From Archangium gephyra (GTDB lineage: Bacteria > Myxococcota > Myxococcia > Myxococcales > Myxococcaceae), in NCBI RefSeq assembly GCF_001027285.1, contig NZ_CP011509.1, forward strand, positions 3,728,501-3,792,500: a DNA stretch of 64,000 nt, in the 5' to 3' direction. Below the pieces are notes generated by a model, which was not told the origin of the DNA, ran no database searches, and saw only the letters and a program-made list of their open reading frames with translations. How positions within the stretch are numbered: the first letter of the stretch is position 1; the number at the start of each line of letters is the position of its first letter. Positions 33,059 through 42,961 of the stretch are shown here, piece by piece. A program made the translations under genes and the position numbers.

Positions 33059-33871
33059 ATGGCCCAACCCGAGCTCACGCTGTACCAGTTCCCCATCTCG
33101 CACTACTGCGAGAAGACCCGCTGGAACCTCGACGCCAAGGGGATTCCCTACGTCATCGAGAACCTGCTTCCCGGCCCGCACCGCTTCGTGACGAAGCGCC
33201 TGACGAAGGGGCGCCGGGGGACGGTCCCCGTGCTGGTGGACGGGGGAACGGTGGTCACGGACTCCACGGACATCGCCCTGCACCTGGAGCGGGCCCACGC
33301 GTCGGCTCCGGCGCTGATTCCGGCCGGGGGCCCCGAGCGCGAGCGGGTGCTGGAACTGGAGACCTACTTCGACGAGGCGGCCGGCAAGCACGTGCGCCGC
33401 TGGGTGTACGCGACGCTCTTCGCCAGTGGCGCGGACATCAAGCCGCTGATGTTCGGCGCGTTCCCGCTGCCGCTGCGTCTGGTGGGCATGGCGCTGTTGC
33501 CCGTCATCAAGACGGCCATCCGCCGCCAGTACACGCTGACGCCCGACAAGGTGGAGGAGTCGCGGGTGAAGATGCTGGAGGGGCTGGACAGGCTGGAGCG
33601 GGAGATTCAGGGAGACCCGTCGCGCTACCTGGTGGGCGAGTCCCTGTCGATCGCGGACATCGCCGCGGCGTCACTCTTCAGCCCGCTGGTGGCCGCCGAG
33701 GGCTCGCCGTACGCGGTGCGGCCCGGAGAGGTGGTGCCCAAGCCGATCGCCGAGATGCGTGCGTCGGTGCTGGCGCGCCCCGCGGGCCAGTGGCTGCTGC
33801 GGCGCTACCGGGAGGACAGGCGGCGCGTGGCACGCGGCTTCGGCGCGAGCGCCGCGGTGGCGAACGGCTGA
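33059..33871 (+). CDS. Glutathione S-transferase family protein
   Basis: 270 aa. The N-terminal thioredoxin-like domain starts LTLYQFPISHYCEKTRWNLD, with the likely active-site Ser/Cys, followed by GTVPVLVDGGTVVTDSTDIA (cis-Pro and glutathione-binding Asp-Ser). The C-terminal helical domain contains GESLSIADIAAASLF, the conserved N-capping motif of GSTs. Longer than the usual 200-220 aa because of an insert at about 115-165. Divergent from a lipoprotein gene across 82 bases. Substrate unknown. Confidence 0.85.
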   Translation: MAQPELTLYQFPISHYCEKTRWNLDAKGIPYVIENLLPGPHRFVTKRLTKGRRGTVPVLVDGGTVVTDSTDIALHLERAHASAPALIPAGGPERERVLELETYFDEAAGKHVRRWVYATLFASGADIKPLMFGAFPLPLRLVGMALLPVIKTAIRRQYTLTPDKVEESRVKMLEGLDRLEREIQGDPSRYLVGESLSIADIAAASLFSPLVAAEGSPYAVRPGEVVPKPIAEMRASVLARPAGQWLLRRYREDRRRVARGFGASAAVANG

Positions 33872-34041
33872 GTCCGTCCGGCCGCTGAGGACGCCGCGGA
33901 TGACCTGAGACGTCTGGAGACGCCGGAAGGGCAGGGGCAGGGAGGCTCAGGGAGCGGAAGTCCCCTTGGCCGGAGGCGCTCGCTGCTCCGGCTGGATGAA
34001 GTGCCGGAAGTATGGGGTTGGGCGTTTGACGAGACCCGCAC

Positions 34042-34710
34042 ATGCACCTTCGCGCCGCGATTTTCGACCTGGATGGGACCCTGCTGGACTCGCTGCATGA
34101 CATTGGCGCGGCGATGAACCATGCGCTGGCCACCCAGGGCCTGCCGGTCCACCCGCTGGCCAGCTACCGGCACTTCGTGGGCAACGGCATCCAGATGACG
34201 GTGGCCCGCTCCCTGCCCTCGGGCCGGGAGGAGCTGCACCCGGCGGTGCTGAGTACCTTCCGCGCCTTCTACGCCGAGCACATGCTCGACCACACCCGGC
34301 CCTTTCCCGGCGTGCCCGAGGTGCTCGCCCGGCTTAGGGACCAGGGCGTGAAGCTGGCGGTGTTGAGCAACAAGGCGGACGCGACCACCCGTCAACTGGT
34401 CGCGGACCTGCTGCCGGACGTGCGCTTCGACGCCGTCTATGGCGAGCGCGATGGGGTGCCGCGCAAGCCGGATCCCACGGCGGCGCTCGGTATCGCGGCG
34501 GAGCTGGGTGTGAAGCCCGGACACTGCGCGTTCATCGGTGACACGGCGGTGGACATGGAGACCGCCTGCGCCGCCGGCATGTACGGCGTGGGCGTCACCT
34601 GGGGCTTCCGCGACGAAGCGGAGCTCCAGTCACATGGAGCCCGGGTCCTCGCCCGGACGTCGGACGAACTGCTTCAAATCCTCTCGGGCGCGCCCCGCGT
34701 CGCACCCTGA
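34042..34710 (+). CDS. gph: HAD-family phosphatase, phosphoglycolate phosphatase-like
   Basis: 222 aa. Motif I is IFDLDGTLLDS (nucleophile Asp and acid Asp), motif II is AVLSNKAD, motif III is the Lys in PRKPDP, and motif IV is FIGDTAVDMETA. The cap region and length fit Gph, which removes phosphoglycolate formed during DNA repair or oxygenase side reactions. Other small phosphates are possible. It is preceded by 170 bases in which I see no gene. Confidence 0.85.
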   Translation: MHLRAAIFDLDGTLLDSLHDIGAAMNHALATQGLPVHPLASYRHFVGNGIQMTVARSLPSGREELHPAVLSTFRAFYAEHMLDHTRPFPGVPEVLARLRDQGVKLAVLSNKADATTRQLVADLLPDVRFDAVYGERDGVPRKPDPTAALGIAAELGVKPGHCAFIGDTAVDMETACAAGMYGVGVTWGFRDEAELQSHGARVLARTSDELLQILSGAPRVAP

Positions 34711-34800
34711 CCCCGAGCGGGTCCAGCGGTGCGGGGTGTGATGCACTTCAACCCTGGCATGTGAGGGCTGTCACAGCGACGAAGCGGAGCAGGGTGGCAA

Positions 34801-34840
34801 TGTGTCTGTCATCTGGACGCGACCTCGTCGTTCAGACACA
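34801..34840. promoter_or_regulatory. Inverted repeat upstream of the isonitrile-synthase-like gene
   Basis: TGTGTCTG (34801-34808) and CAGACACA (34833-34840) are perfect 8-base arms 24 bases apart, ending 18 bases before the ATG. They could be a regulator's operator or a leader hairpin controlling the small biosynthetic operon. Role is inferred. Confidence 0.45.
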
Positions 34841-34858
34841 CAGCCAAGGAGCAGCAAC

Positions 34859-36031
34859 ATGATCAACACCCAGGAAGCCCGGCCCGACAGTGTCAGCGAG
34901 GCCCTCAGCGAGAGTGCGCTCATCGGTCGTTTTCAGTGGCCACTCGATGACCCGAGGCTCCGTACACAGTCCCGCCGTCTGACCTGCGCGAGCGACGATG
35001 CGCGGCTGGCCAGGGCGGCAACGCCTGACTTCGATCTGGAAGGCTTCCTGAAGAAGACCCAGGGGCTCTCCAGCGAGATGCGGATCATCGAGCTGCTCAA
35101 CGAGACCTGCCAGTTCAACTCGCGCTCGCGGTTCCGGGACGGCGAGGATGTGCGGGAGCGCATCCGCCGCATGCAGGCGGTCGGCCGGCCAATCGAGATC
35201 GTCTTGCCCGCGTTCGCGCCCGTCCTGAACACGGTGAAGCGCTTCGAGTCGGTGGCGCTCTCGGGCGCCGAAGACGTGAGTCTGCTCTACCTCTCCTGGG
35301 TCGCGGAGCTCATCGCGCGCGTGTATGAGCCCGGCGCGATCATCCACGTCGTGAGCGATGGCGTCTTCTACTCGAGCGCGCTGGGCATCACGTGGGTCGA
35401 GGCCCACACGTACGAGCAACGGCTGAAGGCGCGTGTCCGCGAGCTCGGCCTCCACAACGTCGTCGTCCACAGCATGTCGGACTTCCTGCTGCCCTGCCAT
35501 GACGAGTTCTTGCGGAACTTCGATCGGCACTACCACGAGATCTGGAAGGGCCACTCCAATGATGGGATTACCGCCAAGGATGTGGGCCGGCTGTCCGGCA
35601 GCCTGCTCGCGGGCATCAACACGCGCAAATACGGCTTCACGTACGAGGAGATGAGGAACCTGTTCTCCGCGGATGTTCCTCCCGAGCAGCGCTATGCGGA
35701 GTGGGTGACGGTCTTCGCCTCCCTGCGGGACTCGGTGACGCACTACCGTGCGCTTCGCGCGGCACTCGCGGAGCTGCGTTGGGAAGAGAAGCAGTTTCCG
35801 GGAGCCCTGCGGGCGACGATCCACCTGAAGAAGAAGTCCATCCTGGGGATGCGGCTGTATCCCGAGTACAGGCGCCGCTCGATGCTGCTGCCGTACCATG
35901 GCATCGGGGTGCTGTCGCACGACGGTTGCCTGACGGTGGAGCCGGAGATGTTCGTCTGTGGCCGTCCGGAGTACACCCGGGTGGTCAACGCCGATGGGAC
36001 GACGCGTTTCTACGAGCAGATCGTCAGCTGA
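34859..36031 (+). CDS. DIT1/PvcA-family isonitrile synthase-like enzyme
   Basis: 390 aa. The family (PvcA, IsnA, yeast Dit1) makes isonitriles from aromatic amino acids and ribulose-5-phosphate. Recognisable blocks are EIVLPAFAPVLNTVKRFE, then YEPGAIIHVVSDGVFYSSAL (the pGA...SDGvvf block), VVVHSMSDF, and near the end RATIHLKKKSILGMRLYP followed by LLPYHGIGV. It is longer than PvcA (about 330 aa) at the N-terminus. ATG 34859 follows AAGGAGC. Downstream is an MFS exporter gene. No PvcB-type oxygenase or P450 is adjacent. The family call is by motif pattern; catalysis is inferred. Confidence 0.75.
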   Translation: MINTQEARPDSVSEALSESALIGRFQWPLDDPRLRTQSRRLTCASDDARLARAATPDFDLEGFLKKTQGLSSEMRIIELLNETCQFNSRSRFRDGEDVRERIRRMQAVGRPIEIVLPAFAPVLNTVKRFESVALSGAEDVSLLYLSWVAELIARVYEPGAIIHVVSDGVFYSSALGITWVEAHTYEQRLKARVRELGLHNVVVHSMSDFLLPCHDEFLRNFDRHYHEIWKGHSNDGITAKDVGRLSGSLLAGINTRKYGFTYEEMRNLFSADVPPEQRYAEWVTVFASLRDSVTHYRALRAALAELRWEEKQFPGALRATIHLKKKSILGMRLYPEYRRRSMLLPYHGIGVLSHDGCLTVEPEMFVCGRPEYTRVVNADGTTRFYEQIVS

Positions 36032-36060
36032 GCGGTGTCGAGGGGTTGAAGGAGGTCTCG

Positions 36061-37230
36061 ATGAGAGCGATGAATCCGCCGCTGCTGTTGCTCACCCTCT
36101 GTCAGGGCCTCTACCTGACGAACAACGTCACGTTCGTCGCGATCAACGGCATGGTCGGGTTGGCGCTCGCACCGACACCGTGGCTGGCGACGTCGCCGGT
36201 GATGGCCTATGTCGCTGGCAGTGCGCTGAGCGCCCCGTTGGTGGCGCGGCACCAGCGGCGCTTCGGCCGCCGCCGCACCTTTCAGCTCGGCCTGGCGGTG
36301 GCGATGGTCACCGCCGCGCTGTGCGCGCTGGCGGTGCTGACGCGCCAGTTCTGGTTGCTGATCGCCTCGACGCTCGCCGCCGGCTACTACAATGCGAATG
36401 GCTCGCTGTACCGCTTCGCGGCGGTGGAACTGGTGCCTCCGTCCGCCAAGGAGCGTGCCATCTCCTGGGTGCTGGCTGGCGGCATCCTGGGGGCGGTGAC
36501 CGGGCCGCAGCTCGCTCTGCTCACGCGTGATGCGCTGCCTCAGCCGTTCGCCGGAGCGTATGTCGCATTGATCGCCGTGGCACTGTTGTCACTGTTGTTG
36601 ATCTCGTTCATCCGGTTCCCCGCGCTCCCTGTGAGCGACTCAGGGAAGGCGGAGGGGCGTCCCCTGTCCGTCCTGGCCCGCCAGCAGGTGTTCGTCGTGG
36701 CGGTCGCGGTGAGCGCACTCGGCTATGGCGTGATGAACCTGCTGATGGCCGCGACGCCGATCGCGATGGCCCAACACGCCCATCCGTTCGGCCACGCCGC
36801 GCTGGTGCTCGAATGGCACGTGTTGGGCATGTATGTGCCCAGCTTCTTCACCGGCTGGCTCATCAAGCGGTTCGGTGCTCTGCGGGTGATGAGCATCGGG
36901 CTGTTGCTGAACTTCGCCTGCACCGCCGTGGCGCTTTCAGGCGTGGACCTGATGCACTTCCTCGTGTCGCTGCTGGTGCTCGGGATCGGATGGAATTTCC
37001 TCTTCATCGGCGGAACCGCGCTGTTCACCGAGGCCTATCAGCCGGAGGAGAGGACCCGCGCGCAGGCCGCCATGGACACCACCATCTACGCGACCATGAC
37101 GATCAGTTCGTTCGGCTCCGGGGCGCTGGTGACCACCGGCGGATGGACCTGGATGAACTTCGCCATGTTGCTGCCACTCGTACTGGTGGCAGCGGCGCTC
37201 GGTTGGTTGGCGCTGGAACGGCGGCGGTGA
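36061..37230 (+). CDS. MFS transporter paired with the isonitrile-synthase-like gene
   Basis: 389 aa with about twelve transmembrane helices. RHQRRFGRRRTFQLG fits the conserved loop 2-3 motif of the major facilitator superfamily, and a related GWLIKRFGALRVM loop starts the second half. AAG GAGG lies 6 bases before the ATG, a near-perfect ribosome site, and the gene starts 29 bases after the DIT1-like stop, so they are cotranscribed. By analogy with yeast Dit1 and the transporter Dtr1, it probably exports the product. Confidence 0.85.
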   Translation: MRAMNPPLLLLTLCQGLYLTNNVTFVAINGMVGLALAPTPWLATSPVMAYVAGSALSAPLVARHQRRFGRRRTFQLGLAVAMVTAALCALAVLTRQFWLLIASTLAAGYYNANGSLYRFAAVELVPPSAKERAISWVLAGGILGAVTGPQLALLTRDALPQPFAGAYVALIAVALLSLLLISFIRFPALPVSDSGKAEGRPLSVLARQQVFVVAVAVSALGYGVMNLLMAATPIAMAQHAHPFGHAALVLEWHVLGMYVPSFFTGWLIKRFGALRVMSIGLLLNFACTAVALSGVDLMHFLVSLLVLGIGWNFLFIGGTALFTEAYQPEERTRAQAAMDTTIYATMTISSFGSGALVTTGGWTWMNFAMLLPLVLVAAALGWLALERRR

Positions 37231-37270
37231 GCCGAGCCCTTCTGGATAACGGGCGGCGGGGCCGGTGGGC

Positions 37271-38161
37271 TCAGGCGGCGGGAGCGCTCGAGACCGGAGC
37301 GGCTTCCGGCTGGGGCTGGATGAAGCGCTCGAGGTACTGGGTGCTGAGCTTCTGGGTGAGGACGGCGTTCTCGAGCAGCGCCACCTTGTTCTCCTCCGTC
37401 TTGCCGTCCTTGATCACGGTGTGGATCTCGTTGACGGTGAGGAAGGCCGTGTTCGCGCACTGGGGGCAGTACTGCCGCAGGAGCTGGATGCGGTAGGCGG
37501 AGTCGGTGTCCGGATGGTCGGCCAGGGTGAGCAGGCTGGCGAGGTCGCCGCGGTCCAGCACGGGCTGGACGTCCTGGCGGGTGAGACCCTTGAGGCTGTT
37601 GCCCTGGCTCTTGGTCCACGCCTGGCAGGGCTCGCAGTAGGGCTCGGCCGCCGCGTTCATCGCGAGGAGGAGGGGAGCACCGAGAACGATGACGGCCTCG
37701 ATGAACCAGATGACCATGACGCCGATGCCGGTGATCTCCATGCTGCGGACCGTCCAGCCTCCCTGCAGGCGTGCGTCGATCCATCTCCCGATGGGGATCT
37801 CCTGGGCGAGCTGCAGCACGGTGACGTCCGGATCAGTGGAGGCCGCCTCACGGAGCGCGAGCACGAAGCCCCAGCCATAGGAGGCGGCGAGACCCGTCGC
37901 ACCCACCAGCAGGCCCAGCCCGAGCGCGAGCGCGCGGTTGCGGCAGTGGCCGGCCGTGATGCTCATGGAGCACAGCATCGCGAGCCCGAAGCCGAAGCCG
38001 GCGGTGAGCAGGAAGCTCACGTAGATGAAGGGAATGAGGTCGAGCAGCAGCATGTACAGGCCCGCGAGCAGGCTCGCCGCGAGCAGAGAACCGAGCGCGT
38101 ACACGAGCGTGAGCGGACCGAACGCGCCGGACGGCGCGTAGCGTTGAATGGTGGAGTGCAT
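37271..38161 (-). CDS. Membrane protein with two CxxC pairs, unknown
   Basis: 296 aa. Four to five likely helices (about 18-40, 45-70, 78-102, 145-168). A cytosolic or periplasmic domain follows, with YCEPCQAW near residue 175 and YCPQCANTAFL near residue 232. The paired CxxC could bind zinc or iron or form redox disulfides. No family recognised. It follows the methyltransferase gene by 65 bases on the same strand, so they may be cotranscribed. It is convergent with the MFS gene. Confidence 0.65.
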   Translation of the reverse strand: MHSTIQRYAPSGAFGPLTLVYALGSLLAASLLAGLYMLLLDLIPFIYVSFLLTAGFGFGLAMLCSMSITAGHCRNRALALGLGLLVGATGLAASYGWGFVLALREAASTDPDVTVLQLAQEIPIGRWIDARLQGGWTVRSMEITGIGVMVIWFIEAVIVLGAPLLLAMNAAAEPYCEPCQAWTKSQGNSLKGLTRQDVQPVLDRGDLASLLTLADHPDTDSAYRIQLLRQYCPQCANTAFLTVNEIHTVIKDGKTEENKVALLENAVLTQKLSTQYLERFIQPQPEAAPVSSAPAA

Positions 38162-38226
38162 GGATGTGAGTCCCCCTCTGGCGGCAGGAGGCCTTCGTGG
38201 CTCCCGCCGTTGTTCCGGGAGGTATA

Positions 38227-39051
38227 CTAGAATTCGTAGCGCAGGTGCCGGACCAGGTTTCGATAGAACGGCATCCGGCCCAGGGCCCCGGCCATCGCCT
38301 TGGAGAACCAGTTCCTGGACAGCCGGCTGACCAGCTCGGGCAGGGTCAGGAACTCCACGCTCTCGGCGAGGTGAAGCCTGGGGACCTGCTTCTCGAGCTG
38401 GTGCGGATCATCGACTCCCCAGACGAGCTCGACCTTCGCGCCACGCACCGTCGCGAGACGGGAGACCAGGCGCACCATCGCCCCGCTGTAGCCGTCGAAC
38501 GCGATCTGCCCGCTCGGGAACTGCTCGGTGATGCGCCGGAACAACGCCGTCCCGTCCTGCTCGTGCAGGTACATCACCAGACCCTCGGCGATGACGAGCA
38601 CCGGCGTGTCTCCTGGGATGGCGTCGAGCCAGGAGAGGTCGGTCACCGAAGAGCCAATCCGGCGATAACCTTCGCGCTCCGGGTAGAGCTGCTCGCGCAG
38701 GGCGATGACGTCGGGAAAGTCGATGTCGAACCAGCGGACCTTCGGTCCCGGGTCGATTCGATACACGCGGGTGTCGAGGCCGCAGCCCAGGTGGAGGACG
38801 GTCGACTCGGGGTTTGCGGCGAGGAACGCTCGCGTCCACTGGTCGAAGTGCCGGGCCCGCATCGGCAGGGAGATCTCGCCCCCGCTCGGCAGCTTCAACG
38901 CCTTGAAGTCGTAGTCGATGCGTGCGACGGCCTCCGCGGCGAAGCGGTCACCCAAAATGGGATTCTCGACCGCTGCGTCCAGCGCCTTGCCATACAGCGT
39001 GGCGAGGTACGTCTCCTTCTCCTTGGTCAGACGAATCTTGTTCGCTTCCAT
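38227..39051 (-). CDS. SAM-dependent methyltransferase, PPM1/TcmP-like
   Basis: 274 aa. The SAM site is VLHLGCGLDTRVYRID, followed by WFDIDFPDVIALREQLYP and VIAEGLVMYL, a pattern of the leucine carboxyl methyltransferase/TcmP family. These enzymes methylate small-molecule carboxyls or hydroxyls in secondary metabolism, so a link with the nearby isonitrile locus is possible, although this gene is on the other strand. ATG at 39051; the longer frame to 39282 has no support. Confidence 0.85.
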   Translation of the reverse strand: MEANKIRLTKEKETYLATLYGKALDAAVENPILGDRFAAEAVARIDYDFKALKLPSGGEISLPMRARHFDQWTRAFLAANPESTVLHLGCGLDTRVYRIDPGPKVRWFDIDFPDVIALREQLYPEREGYRRIGSSVTDLSWLDAIPGDTPVLVIAEGLVMYLHEQDGTALFRRITEQFPSGQIAFDGYSGAMVRLVSRLATVRGAKVELVWGVDDPHQLEKQVPRLHLAESVEFLTLPELVSRLSRNWFSKAMAGALGRMPFYRNLVRHLRYEF

Positions 39052-39217
39052 TCTCGCCTCGAGCCGCGGTGGCGCCGGTCGCGGTCCGGGGAGTGAATCA
39101 ATCCCGCTCTCTCCGGTCAACCAACCCGGCCGTGGGGCCTTGCCTGGCCTTGATTCAGCGGTCCCTTGCACCCACCTTGTTTCAAACACTGAGGGCCGGG
39201 ATGAATTCAGGACGCCT

Positions 39218-40027
39218 TTAATGCATCCCCAGCTTGTCGTCCCAGTCGAACAACAGCGCGAGCAGCTCCGCCGTACACGCACCAGACACCCGCTCGAAAG
39301 AGGGTGGGTCGAGTGTCGCCAGGCGCTCTCGCTGAAAGATGGGGTCAGCCAACACTTGCCGGTGTTTCAGATCTGGCTCGGAGGAAAGTGCTCGGGGCAG
39401 CTGTCTGAGGATGGCCGCGATGCTGTCCTCCCGGGTCGCTCGCGCCATGCGCTCCGTGGCCTTCTCCAAACGCACGTGCACTGACGCTTCTTTCTCGGGG
39501 CACCACGCGTCCAGGGCCCAGCCGCAGGCTGCCACCATGAGCTCTTCCAGGGTATACGCCTCCCCCAGTCTCTTGTAGAGGTAGCACGCGCACTGGAGCG
39601 GCTCCCAGAAGCGCAGCACCGCCTGGAGACGCTGCGCCATACGCTCCGCGCTCATGGGGTGCAGGTATGTCGTCGCGAAGAACAGCGCGCCCCACGCCGT
39701 TTCGCGGAAGAGCGTCTCGTAAGCACTCCTCATGGGAAAGGGATTCTGCCCTTCACCAGAGGGGGTGTTGGACAAGTGGCCCATGAGATTCGAGACCATG
39801 TACAGCCGCCAGGCTGGACGCTCGCGCTGGAAGTCCACCACCTCTTGCGCCAGCACCACCTCACCCGGGGGCACCTCCAACAGTTGTTGGGGCGCGGGGA
39901 AGGTGCCGTCCTTGTGGTACTGCTCGCCGCACCGCAGCCCTTCTCTTCTTGCCTTCTGCTGGACCGAGCGGAAGGTGCCATGGAGGAAGGATGGCAGTCG
40001 CAGTGAAGACGTCTGACCGGGCATCAT
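39218..40027 (-). CDS. Unknown protein downstream of nuclease-like lipoprotein (immunity candidate)
   Basis: 269 aa, soluble, rich in Trp and Cys (WGALFFATTYLHP, CACYLYKRLGEAYT, ACGWALDAWCP). I recognise no domain. It starts 26 bases after the stop of a PD-(D/E)XK-like lipoprotein, in the position that immunity genes hold in SitA/SitI pairs. Codon use is more AT-rich than that of flanking genes. Two adjacent ATGs (40027, 40024) are possible starts. The immunity role is an inference from position. Confidence 0.6.
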   Translation of the reverse strand: MMPGQTSSLRLPSFLHGTFRSVQQKARREGLRCGEQYHKDGTFPAPQQLLEVPPGEVVLAQEVVDFQRERPAWRLYMVSNLMGHLSNTPSGEGQNPFPMRSAYETLFRETAWGALFFATTYLHPMSAERMAQRLQAVLRFWEPLQCACYLYKRLGEAYTLEELMVAACGWALDAWCPEKEASVHVRLEKATERMARATREDSIAAILRQLPRALSSEPDLKHRQVLADPIFQRERLATLDPPSFERVSGACTAELLALLFDWDDKLGMH

Positions 40028-40053
40028 GACGTGCGTCCTAGCAAATCAGGTTC

Positions 40054-41079
40054 TCAGCGAGGAAGGGGCATGCTCGCGGCGGCGGGAACCTGGGACGGGG
40101 GCGCCGTGGGTGGGGGGCGCGCGGGGAAGGGGATGACCTGTCCACCGCCCTGCGCGGGGGGCTGCTGGGCTCCCGTCCCTGAATTCATCTGGCCCAGGAG
40201 TGCACCCCACAAGACTACTCTCGCGGCGTTGCCAACGAGGTCGATGACGAGGCCCATGGCTCCAGCGAAGGTGGCGAGTTTCTCGCGCCGGCTGACCATG
40301 TCTTCCACGGCCTTTTCCACCCACCCGCCGTACTGCCGCAACTCCTCCGCTTCGAGTTCCTCCCACTGACCTGCCTCGTACGCCGCCCTCTCGGACTCGA
40401 AGCGCTGCTGGCTGCGGGTCCACCGGTACTGGAGCACTCCGGGTTCTTGGGTCCGCCACTCCAGCCGCCAGATGTATTGTCCCCGTGCGAAGCGAATCAG
40501 GACTTCGCCATGGAAATCCGTACCACCCGTGAAGCGTTTGCCTGCCAGGATGGTTCGATTCAAAGCGTTCAGATAGGTCCGCGCCTTCTCTCGTCCTTCC
40601 TGGAGACCTTTCTCGTGCCAGGGTTTGATCTCGAAGAGCACACGACGGGTGATATCAGTGATGTCGGGGCACATCGTATGCTCGCCTGGGAGCAGACGGG
40701 ACACATCCCCGAGCCCCGTTTCCTCGATGATGATCTTGATGTGCCTGTTGTTGTAATAGACTTGGCGATCCGGGTGCCTCACGCCGTACATATAGGCAAT
40801 CAGTCGATGTGAGGCGCTGCCGAGGAAGAGTTCCCAGGGCATCCGCGAGTCCGGATTCCGGCCGGGGACGTTGTAGCCCTTGAGCGGCGGCCCAGTGGGC
40901 TCTCCCAATCCACCTGGGCTGTCGCTCATGGCCGCGAGGGTTCGCGGCCCTCCCGAACTCCAGAGGCGGGGCTGTGTGCCGGGCGCTGTGGCGCAACCGG
41001 CGAGCACAGATACAAACAACAGAGCCACCCCATACCGCGCGCTCCGGGACACGGACGGACACCTGACAGAGACATCCAT
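40054..41079 (-). CDS. Lipoprotein with PD-(D/E)XK nuclease-like domain, SitA-like toxin candidate
   Basis: 341 aa. The signal peptide ends with lipobox LAGC at Cys29. The central domain has WELFLGSASHRLIAYMYG, then P138-D139 in CPDITDITRR and E150-I-K152 in VLFEIKPWHEKG, the spacing of a PD-(D/E)XK nuclease core. GREKARTYLNAL follows. The C-terminal 40 residues are Pro/Gln/Ala-rich. The layout (lipid anchor, nuclease, adjacent unknown gene) is that of myxobacterial SitA-type toxins. ATG 41079 has GGAGG just upstream. The segment is visibly less GC-rich than its neighbours, which suggests recent transfer. Confidence 0.68.
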   Translation of the reverse strand: MDVSVRCPSVSRSARYGVALLFVSVLAGCATAPGTQPRLWSSGGPRTLAAMSDSPGGLGEPTGPPLKGYNVPGRNPDSRMPWELFLGSASHRLIAYMYGVRHPDRQVYYNNRHIKIIIEETGLGDVSRLLPGEHTMCPDITDITRRVLFEIKPWHEKGLQEGREKARTYLNALNRTILAGKRFTGGTDFHGEVLIRFARGQYIWRLEWRTQEPGVLQYRWTRSQQRFESERAAYEAGQWEELEAEELRQYGGWVEKAVEDMVSRREKLATFAGAMGLVIDLVGNAARVVLWGALLGQMNSGTGAQQPPAQGGGQVIPFPARPPPTAPPSQVPAAASMPLPR

Positions 41080-41134
41080 GGGTACCTCCACTCCGATGGG
41101 CTTGCCTCTTCGGCACCCGGCTTCGCCTCCTCTT

Positions 41135-42283
41135 TCAGCCCACCAGCAGCCCCACCAGCGCGCCCCCCAGCACGAGCCACGCGGAGTTGACGCGGTAACG
41201 AATCAGCAGCACGGCGCTGAGGAGTGCGAGGCCCACCGTCCACACGTCCACGAGGGCCGCGCGCCCGAGCTGCCAGGTGACGGTGGCCATCAGCGCCAGC
41301 GAGGCCACGTTGACGCCATCGAGGAAGGCACCCGCGACCCATGAGCGGCGCATTCGGGGCACCAGCGGTCCGCTCACCGCGACGAAGAAGAACGCGGGCA
41401 GGAAGATGCCCACCGTGGCCACCACCGCTCCCGGGGCCCCGCCCAGCACGTAGCCGATGAAGGTGGCCGTGGTGAAGACGGGCCCGGGCGTCACCTGTCC
41501 CACCGCCACCGCGTCCAGCAGTTGCGCCTCGGTGAGCCATCCCCAGCGCTCCACCAGGTCCGCGCGCAGGAAGGCCAGCAGCACGTAGCCACTGCCGTAG
41601 AGGATGGAGCCCACCTTCAGAAAGAAGAGGAAGAGGCCGCCGAGGCTGAAGCCCGGAGCCGCCGCTGCCGCCACCAGTCCACCCAGCGGCAGGCCCGGGA
41701 GGAGCGCTTTCACCGCCGGTGGCGCCGTGCCTCCACCCTCGCGCCTTCGGGCCACCAGCCTCCACAGCGTCACGAAGCCACCCGCCAGAACCAGGAGGAG
41801 CAGCTCGTTCACACCCAGGAAGCCCAGCGCCACGCAGGCCACACCCACCGCCGCCAGCAGTTTCGTCTTCGCCGCCCCGCGCGTCAGTCCCCAGATGGCC
41901 TGCAGCACCACGGAGATGATGACGGGCTTCACGCCATACAGCACATGCCCCACCCGTGGGAGCTGCCCGAAGCGCGTGTACACCCAGCCAATCACCGACA
42001 CGATGAGGAACGCCGGGAGGATGAAGCACGCGCCCGCCACCACCAACCCGCTCCAGCCCGCCCGCCGGTGCCCGATGTGGATGGCCAGCTCGGTCGAGTT
42101 CGGTCCGGGGATGAGATTGGCGGCTCCGAGCAGATCCAGGAACTCCTCGCGCGTGAGCCACTTCCGGCGCCGGACGACCTCGTCCTCCATCATCGCGATG
42201 TGCGCCGCCGGTCCGCCAAAGGCCGTCGTCCCCAGCCGCAGGAAGAGCAGCGCCAGCTCCCGCAGCGCTCCCGCCTGGCTCAC
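41135..42283 (-). CDS. chrA: Chromate efflux transporter ChrA
   Basis: 382 aa with two CHR domains. The first has FGGPAAHIAMMEDEVV and LLGAANLIPGPNSTELA; the second has GSILYGSGYVLLAFLRADLV and VAVGQVTPGPVFTTATFIG. It exports chromate from the cytoplasm. The start is GTG 42283, overlapping the upstream doxX stop (GTGA); the farther GTG at 42328 is less likely. ChrA paired with DoxX suggests a metal or redox stress operon. Confidence 0.92.
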   Translation of the reverse strand: MSQAGALRELALLFLRLGTTAFGGPAAHIAMMEDEVVRRRKWLTREEFLDLLGAANLIPGPNSTELAIHIGHRRAGWSGLVVAGACFILPAFLIVSVIGWVYTRFGQLPRVGHVLYGVKPVIISVVLQAIWGLTRGAAKTKLLAAVGVACVALGFLGVNELLLLVLAGGFVTLWRLVARRREGGGTAPPAVKALLPGLPLGGLVAAAAAPGFSLGGLFLFFLKVGSILYGSGYVLLAFLRADLVERWGWLTEAQLLDAVAVGQVTPGPVFTTATFIGYVLGGAPGAVVATVGIFLPAFFFVAVSGPLVPRMRRSWVAGAFLDGVNVASLALMATVTWQLGRAALVDVWTVGLALLSAVLLIRYRVNSAWLVLGGALVGLLVG

Positions 42284-42723: not shown

Positions 42724-42961
42724 TGCGTCAAACCCTCCCTTCCGGCCGCTCTTCGCACGGATTGCACGCCCTGTCGCGGCTCAATCCCGTCACGACGCTC
42801 CGTGTCGAAGGAGTTGCACCGGGGGCGGGTGGACGCCTCGCGAGCGGCTCGGGCAGCATGCGCGCCACCCGAAGGGGGGGCCTCCAGGCGGTCATGGGAA
42901 TTCCCCGCCGCTCCCAGGGTTACCTGCCTTCGTCTCACCCGATACAGCACAGCGAGAACGC

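Follow-up and report, generated by a model that had tools for sequence, protein, structure and literature searches.

A divergent DIT1_PvcA-superfamily enzyme with HAD phosphatase and MFS exporter genes at a variable chromosomal site of Archangium gephyra

Isonitriles are reactive, metal-binding small molecules. PvcA and IsnA, according to PMC7949033, join the amino nitrogen of tyrosine or tryptophan to a carbon of ribulose-5-phosphate, in a chemistry described there as requiring just the amino acid and ribulose-5-phosphate. The same Pfam family (PF05141) contains the yeast protein Dit1, which is reportedly not an isocyanide synthase and most likely makes formyl tyrosine (PMC7345447); PMC10153163 treats its status as an open question. 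Yeast also offers an analogy in gene content, since Dit1 and the MFS transporter Dtr1 act within one pathway, but that pathway has a P450 partner, Dit2, and a role in the spore wall. Among the literature matches listed, with subscription journals mostly outside the search, only PMC5890197 bears on a HAD partner for isonitrile synthases. That paper places the DIT1_PvcA genes of Pseudomonas corrugata next to a phosphoglycolate-phosphatase-type gene: DIT1_1, gph_2 and DIT1_2 are adjacent, and pcoR mutants and rfiA mutants express all three less than the wild type does. By the locus tags given in that text, gph lies between both DIT1 genes in one strain and at one side in the other.

The locus described here belongs to a window of 64,000 nucleotides of the Archangium gephyra chromosome, the whole stretch of DNA that was analysed. 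Like P. corrugata, it combines a DIT1_PvcA gene with a phosphatase gene of this type; P. corrugata differs, in a comparison made by its published description, in that DIT1 is present twice, once with a CAS-like domain, and in a DIT1_2 reported as 40% like PvcA (PMC5890197). The features are collected in Table 1.

Table 1. Features of the locus (window coordinates)
Feature	Position	Strand	Evidence or setting
Variable site in the genus	33877..41143	.	blastn against five congeners; the cassette is its first part
HAD phosphatase, phosphoglycolate phosphatase type	34042..34710	+	HAD_2 E 1.2e-34; TIGR01449 144.2 bits
Inverted repeat TGTGTCTG / CAGACACA	34801..34840 (arms at 34801 and 34833)	.	gap before enzyme gene
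Divergent DIT1_PvcA-superfamily enzyme P0002, 390 aa	34859..36031	+	PF05141 profile, alignment A4
MFS exporter P0001	36061..37230	+	PF07690 E 2.1e-27
Protein P0004, no family assigned	37271..38161	-	no Pfam or NCBIfam match

Identity and conserved residues of the enzyme

The initial annotation placed the start of an isonitrile-synthase-like gene near 34801. The start codon is most likely ATG 34859, because AGGAG lies upstream of it and the N-termini of alphaproteobacterial relatives align there. The profile search that had been proposed places P0002 in the DIT1_PvcA superfamily, with 61.3 bits against PF05141 over residues 103-356 (gathering cut-off 26.4, E 1.4e-16). The solved PvcA structure (PDB 3e59) was also retrieved, at E 4.1e-11 with P0002 and at E 9e-13 with the profile of its clade. 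The two sequence blocks first read as DIT1/PvcA hallmarks fared differently: YEPGAIIHVVSDG does belong to the PvcA blocks; LLPYHGIGV occupies the place of LTPWHG in PvcA and PIsnA. P0002 has LLPYHGIGV in common with a non-canonical set of Rhizobiales homologues, here called A3. In alignment A4, P0002 carries the clade signature IHxK...LG-R-YPEY...LLPYHG and VEPEMF-CG.

The NCBIfam model for L-tyrosine isonitrile synthase (NF045653, PvcA/IsnA) gave P0002 43.1 bits, below its equivalog cut-off of 600. That cut-off is strict, since the canonical PvcA homologue of the same genome, at 277.7 bits, misses it too. Identity between P0002 and this canonical copy (L001) is 21.4% over 290 columns, and identity to the A3 member L031 is 19.2%.

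The conservation of canonical enzymes was defined from 10 homologues of the phylum set, which share 68 invariant columns, the initiator Met included. Of these 68, 20 are retained throughout the eight clade rows and 26 in the window protein by itself, or two more if the local N-P-x-K gap is placed as in hhalign; A3 likewise keeps 20. The clade has largely different residues where the solved PvcA and PIsnA carry the K-SPN, HPQP and TPWHG blocks: the Lys of the first is lost, the second has lost PQP but kept its His, and the third has lost T and W but likewise kept its His. Residues common to the clade and canonical enzymes include, in L001 numbering, P55, F63, E82, D111, Y129, H247, P270 and H272; the kept residues in window numbering are E138, D167, Y185, H322, P345 and H347.

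P0002 resembles PvcA (3e59) and PIsnA (9dh4, 9dhm, 9dhn) in its PF05141 domain and in the core E82, D111, Y129, H247 and H272, but differs in the replaced blocks, in its length, with about 100 residues ahead of the domain, and in its gene neighbours, where HAD and MFS genes are found and neither PvcB nor a P450 was seen. A likeness in fold is suggested by a low-confidence structure model, built from 7 rows (mean pLDDT 54.8) and used for the PvcA match only. In the structural list of this weak model, PvcA comes first (Z 8.7, 146 aligned residues, 3.9 A), followed by PIsnA (Z 8.6 and 7.4), with tyrosyl-tRNA synthetases next at Z 5.7 and below. Mapping of an active site onto the model was dropped, the model being too weak.

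Profile comparison with hhalign gave the clade E 1.7e-13 against canonical rows (alignment A2, from which L072, L077 and L078 were left out) and E 9.9e-20, with a higher score, against A3. This preference for A3 is not seen in plain identity or in the unrooted tree. A3 proteins share with P0002 a similar length and the LPYHG block, but have SPKP or SPRP instead of the IHxK block, keep FPxK, and have neighbours of catabolic type.

Judged by these blocks, P0002 falls outside the canonical isonitrile synthases. With K-SPN, HPQP and TPWHG largely lost, the clade may no longer carry out isonitrile chemistry. The label "isonitrile synthase" is reasonable but unproven for P0002, which lacks many residues that the known enzymes have in common. 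Of the original identification, the superfamily assignment stands; the narrower reading as an isonitrile synthase loses ground through the NCBIfam score and the few invariants kept.

A rare clade and its relatives

The P0002 clade comprises 8 full-length rows with support of 100/100. Its stem is long (2.8 changes per column) and drew long-branch warnings in an unrooted tree computed without L077 and L078. At 641 and 514 aa, these two are long and divergent members of PF05141, found in two further phylum-set genomes. A scan of genome contigs found full-length relatives at 37-40% identity in six loci, namely three of Jiella, one each of BW5 and Roseibium, and a Labrenzia; a seventh alphaproteobacterial member occurs in genome G774. 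The plasmid search returned 4 records, including an Agrobacterium plasmid with an A3 member and the Moraxella osloensis plasmid pNP7-7, in which a clade member is in two pieces, split by an IS5 transposase gene and followed by an MFS gene and a short EamA gene. The Moraxella pieces were left out of the alignments.

Among the sequences searched, the clade occurs outside the window genome only in these few alphaproteobacteria and on the Moraxella plasmid. It is present in 1 of 195 phylum-set genomes, where six other matches are partial and weak, and the idea that it is common in relatives was rejected on this count. Canonical PvcA-type genes occur in 10 of the same 195 genomes and divergent PF05141 matches in 2 more. 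In the groups to which its members belong the clade was likewise rare, with 4/397 genomes of one sampled order and 3/87 genomes of one family, all of them query seeds. Viral contigs yielded 33 pattern stretches, with no relative among them. The P0002 clade is a real, rare and new form within the DIT1_PvcA superfamily.

The canonical PvcA homologue of the window genome (G000:C1:6758834-6759580; L001, L091) scores 254.5 bits and lies 3 Mb off, with a P450 gene directly beside it (PF00067 E 1.2e-29). A similar P450 was found beside 4 of 9 other canonical loci (L070-L073) within the roughly 1.5 kb examined on each side. In the loci L075 and L076, a canonical PvcA-type domain follows a domain that looks, by eye, of TetR type, in single frames of 536 and 524 aa; these are either fusions or artefacts of an upstream start site.

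The A3 set consists of members from G299, G477, G642 (twice), G744 and the Agrobacterium plasmid. Its neighbours, some of them named by eye, are ROK kinases, an isomerase like NagB, and ABC or TRAP transporters for amino acids. The Rhizobiales homologues L031, L032, L034, L079, L080, L084, L087, L088 and L090 lie in catabolic-type operons with genes of these same kinds and with regulators that look GntR-like by eye, and in L087 one ROK kinase stands between two DIT1_PvcA homologues. The ROK-linked homologues of Rhizobiales are probably not isonitrile synthases.

The HAD-enzyme-MFS cassette and its setting

The MFS gene reported behind the enzyme gene was confirmed: it starts 29 bp past the enzyme stop with AGGAGGT just upstream, and its product matches PF07690 at 96.4 bits (gathering cut-off 33.4). 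From this spacing, it is likely co-transcribed with the enzyme gene. The earlier inventory of enzyme and MFS genes thus holds but overlooked a HAD gene upstream on the same strand. The motifs FDLDGT, SNK and GDT are readable in its product, which falls below the TIGR01449 cut-off of 180 bits, as do the HAD proteins of the clade loci L013 and L017 (161.1 and 161.5). The gap from HAD to enzyme gene is 148 bp, and the HAD gene may be a separate unit.

Neighbours were compared in nine clade loci (the window, L012-L017, L089 and L033). A HAD gene adjoins the enzyme gene in the window, L013 and L017, in the latter two downstream of it; L017 also has an EamA gene after the HAD gene. An N-terminal HAD stump follows the enzyme gene in L016. 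There (L016:9073-9519, Roseibium aggregatum), the HAD start VVFDLDGTLVDS runs into unrelated sequence, a stump of rearrangement. By tblastn and ORF lists, HAD was not found in the other 5 of the 9 loci, which are four of Jiella type and Moraxella, and the four Jiella-type loci also yielded neither MFS nor EamA. An MFS gene stands beside the enzyme gene in two of the nine, the window and Moraxella, so that the pairing recurs on the Moraxella plasmid; the two MFS proteins are distant, with 24% identity across 262 aa and E 1.7e-12 from a search of a small database. The chance of a HAD gene on either side of a given gene was reckoned post hoc at <1%, from 8 HAD matches and an estimated ~10,000 genes.

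Close copies of the window HAD are found once in each of the five congeners and twice in the window genome, where the core orthologue lies at G000:C1:11903104 and the second copy at the cassette. For the cassette copy no counterpart was found in the five congeners. Compared with the six core copies of the genus, whose mutual identities are 79.0-93.8%, the window HAD shows 76.6-81.5% identity; with the HADs of the alphaproteobacterial clade loci it shows 31-32%. Because it is so much nearer the core copies, the pairing of HAD and enzyme probably arose more than once, separately.

Homology to the five congeners breaks at 33841-33890 (blastn), behind a GST gene that all six genomes of the genus carry. 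It resumes at 41135-41144 in G043, G045 and G046 and at 42786-42792 in G044 and G047. The length of the site varies among the five congeners, and in G046 only about 25 bp lie between its edges; the GST gene flanks it on one side and a chromate transporter or M13 peptidase gene on the other. The HAD-enzyme-MFS stretch is unmatched in all five (blastn, E 1e-20, 200 bases). This distribution marks the set as an acquired cassette, accessory in the genus. P0004 is present in 1 of the 6 genus genomes, its own.

A TcmP-like methyltransferase had been noted nearby, and its presence is borne out by a match to LCM (59.4 bits, above cut-off; TIGR00027 54.5, below cut-off). Its tie to the cassette did not hold. 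G045 alone also matches 38228-39051 (the methyltransferase) and 39221-40026 (the ORF at 39218), in swapped order, and has both genes here without HAD, enzyme or MFS, so the methyltransferase was rejected as a pathway member. The inverted repeat noted before the enzyme gene exists, but when the 148-bp gap was shuffled 5000 times with dinucleotides preserved, 12.9% of the shuffles held at least one similar repeat, and its reading as an operator was rejected as within chance. Between 28.3 and 45.0 kb of the window, the scanned neighbours that match a Pfam family include no oxygenase. For these neighbours the reported lack of an oxygenase partner stands; a partner of an unfamiliar kind may lie elsewhere in the stretch, for instance among four ORFs without a Pfam family (P0004, 37271-38161; 39218-40027; 40054-41037; 32170-33096).

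Candidate functions and their meaning

With a probability of about one half, the horizontally acquired cassette of HAD, PvcA-superfamily enzyme and MFS produces a small molecule for secretion, of N-C1 type or a related one derived from a sugar phosphate. The core residues are kept and other conserved blocks are changed, and from this a related condensation with other substrates is inferred. The enzyme would join an amino nitrogen, from an amino acid or another amine, to a sugar-phosphate carbon, using a substrate pair other than Tyr or Trp and ribulose-5-phosphate. It would most likely release an N-C1 product, either an isonitrile or an N-formyl compound as proposed for yeast Dit1. The HAD protein would strip a phosphate that stays on substrate, product or by-product, and export of the unoxidised product would fall to the MFS protein. 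Superfamily, clade, gene order and accessory status in the genus are the observed basis from which we infer substrate, product, phosphatase role and export. The profile homology to PvcA and PIsnA, the structural list of the weak model, the shared core residues, the MFS, EamA and HAD neighbours and the adjacent DIT1 and gph genes of P. corrugata argue for this reading; the lost blocks, the higher hhalign score to A3, the five of nine loci in which no HAD was seen, four of them also showing no transporter of these kinds, the distant MFS pair and the 148-bp HAD gap argue against it.

It is rather unlikely that only the imine step between sugar phosphate and amine is kept and no isonitrile arises, with an amino-sugar-type adduct being formed or cleaved, dephosphorylated by HAD and moved by MFS. 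The largely lost canonical blocks, the HAD pairing and the higher hhalign score to A3, with its ROK, NagB-like and ABC/TRAP contexts (partly assigned by eye), are consistent with such a function. But identity is lower to A3 L031 than to canonical L001, the clade does not group with A3 in the unrooted tree, no ROK or NagB neighbours appear in the clade-locus ORF lists as read by eye, and an exporter-type MFS suits a secreted product.

The initial annotation read the gene as a plain isonitrile synthase acting on Tyr or Trp and ribulose-5-phosphate, with export of the unoxidised product. The PF05141 match and the position of PvcA and PIsnA as best solved relatives agree with this, but it is improbable in view of the 21.4% identity to the canonical copy, the 43.1 bits against the 600 of NCBIfam and the absence of 48 of the 68 canonical invariant residues from one or more of the eight clade rows; moreover, the genome already has a separate canonical copy with a P450. 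Very improbable is a function like that of Dit1, in which an N-formyl amino acid is made and the MFS protein exports it, much as yeast has Dit1 and, for its spore wall, the MFS Dtr1. This would fit the report that Dit1 is no isocyanide synthase and the listing of Dtr1 among the references of PMC7345447, but it is tied to the locus by analogy, PMC10153163 leaves the status of Dit1 open, and no P450 such as Dit2 was seen beside the window gene.

Returning to the reading of a small secreted N-C1 or sugar-phosphate-derived molecule, it can be proposed, tentatively and at less than even odds, that the clade represents an undescribed PvcA-superfamily enzyme with its own sugar-phosphate and amine substrates, a dedicated HAD partner and a class of secreted product unlike isocyano-Tyr or isocyano-Trp derivatives. 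Members of the superfamily, such as the Agrobacterium plasmid gene, are recorded as "L-tyrosine/L-tryptophan isonitrile synthase family protein"; yet three sequence clades with differing conserved blocks and neighbours can be told apart here. A phosphatase partner is unexpected if the chemistry requires just an amino acid and ribulose-5-phosphate, as PMC7949033 describes, and it makes the role of these homologues directly testable with two small enzymes.
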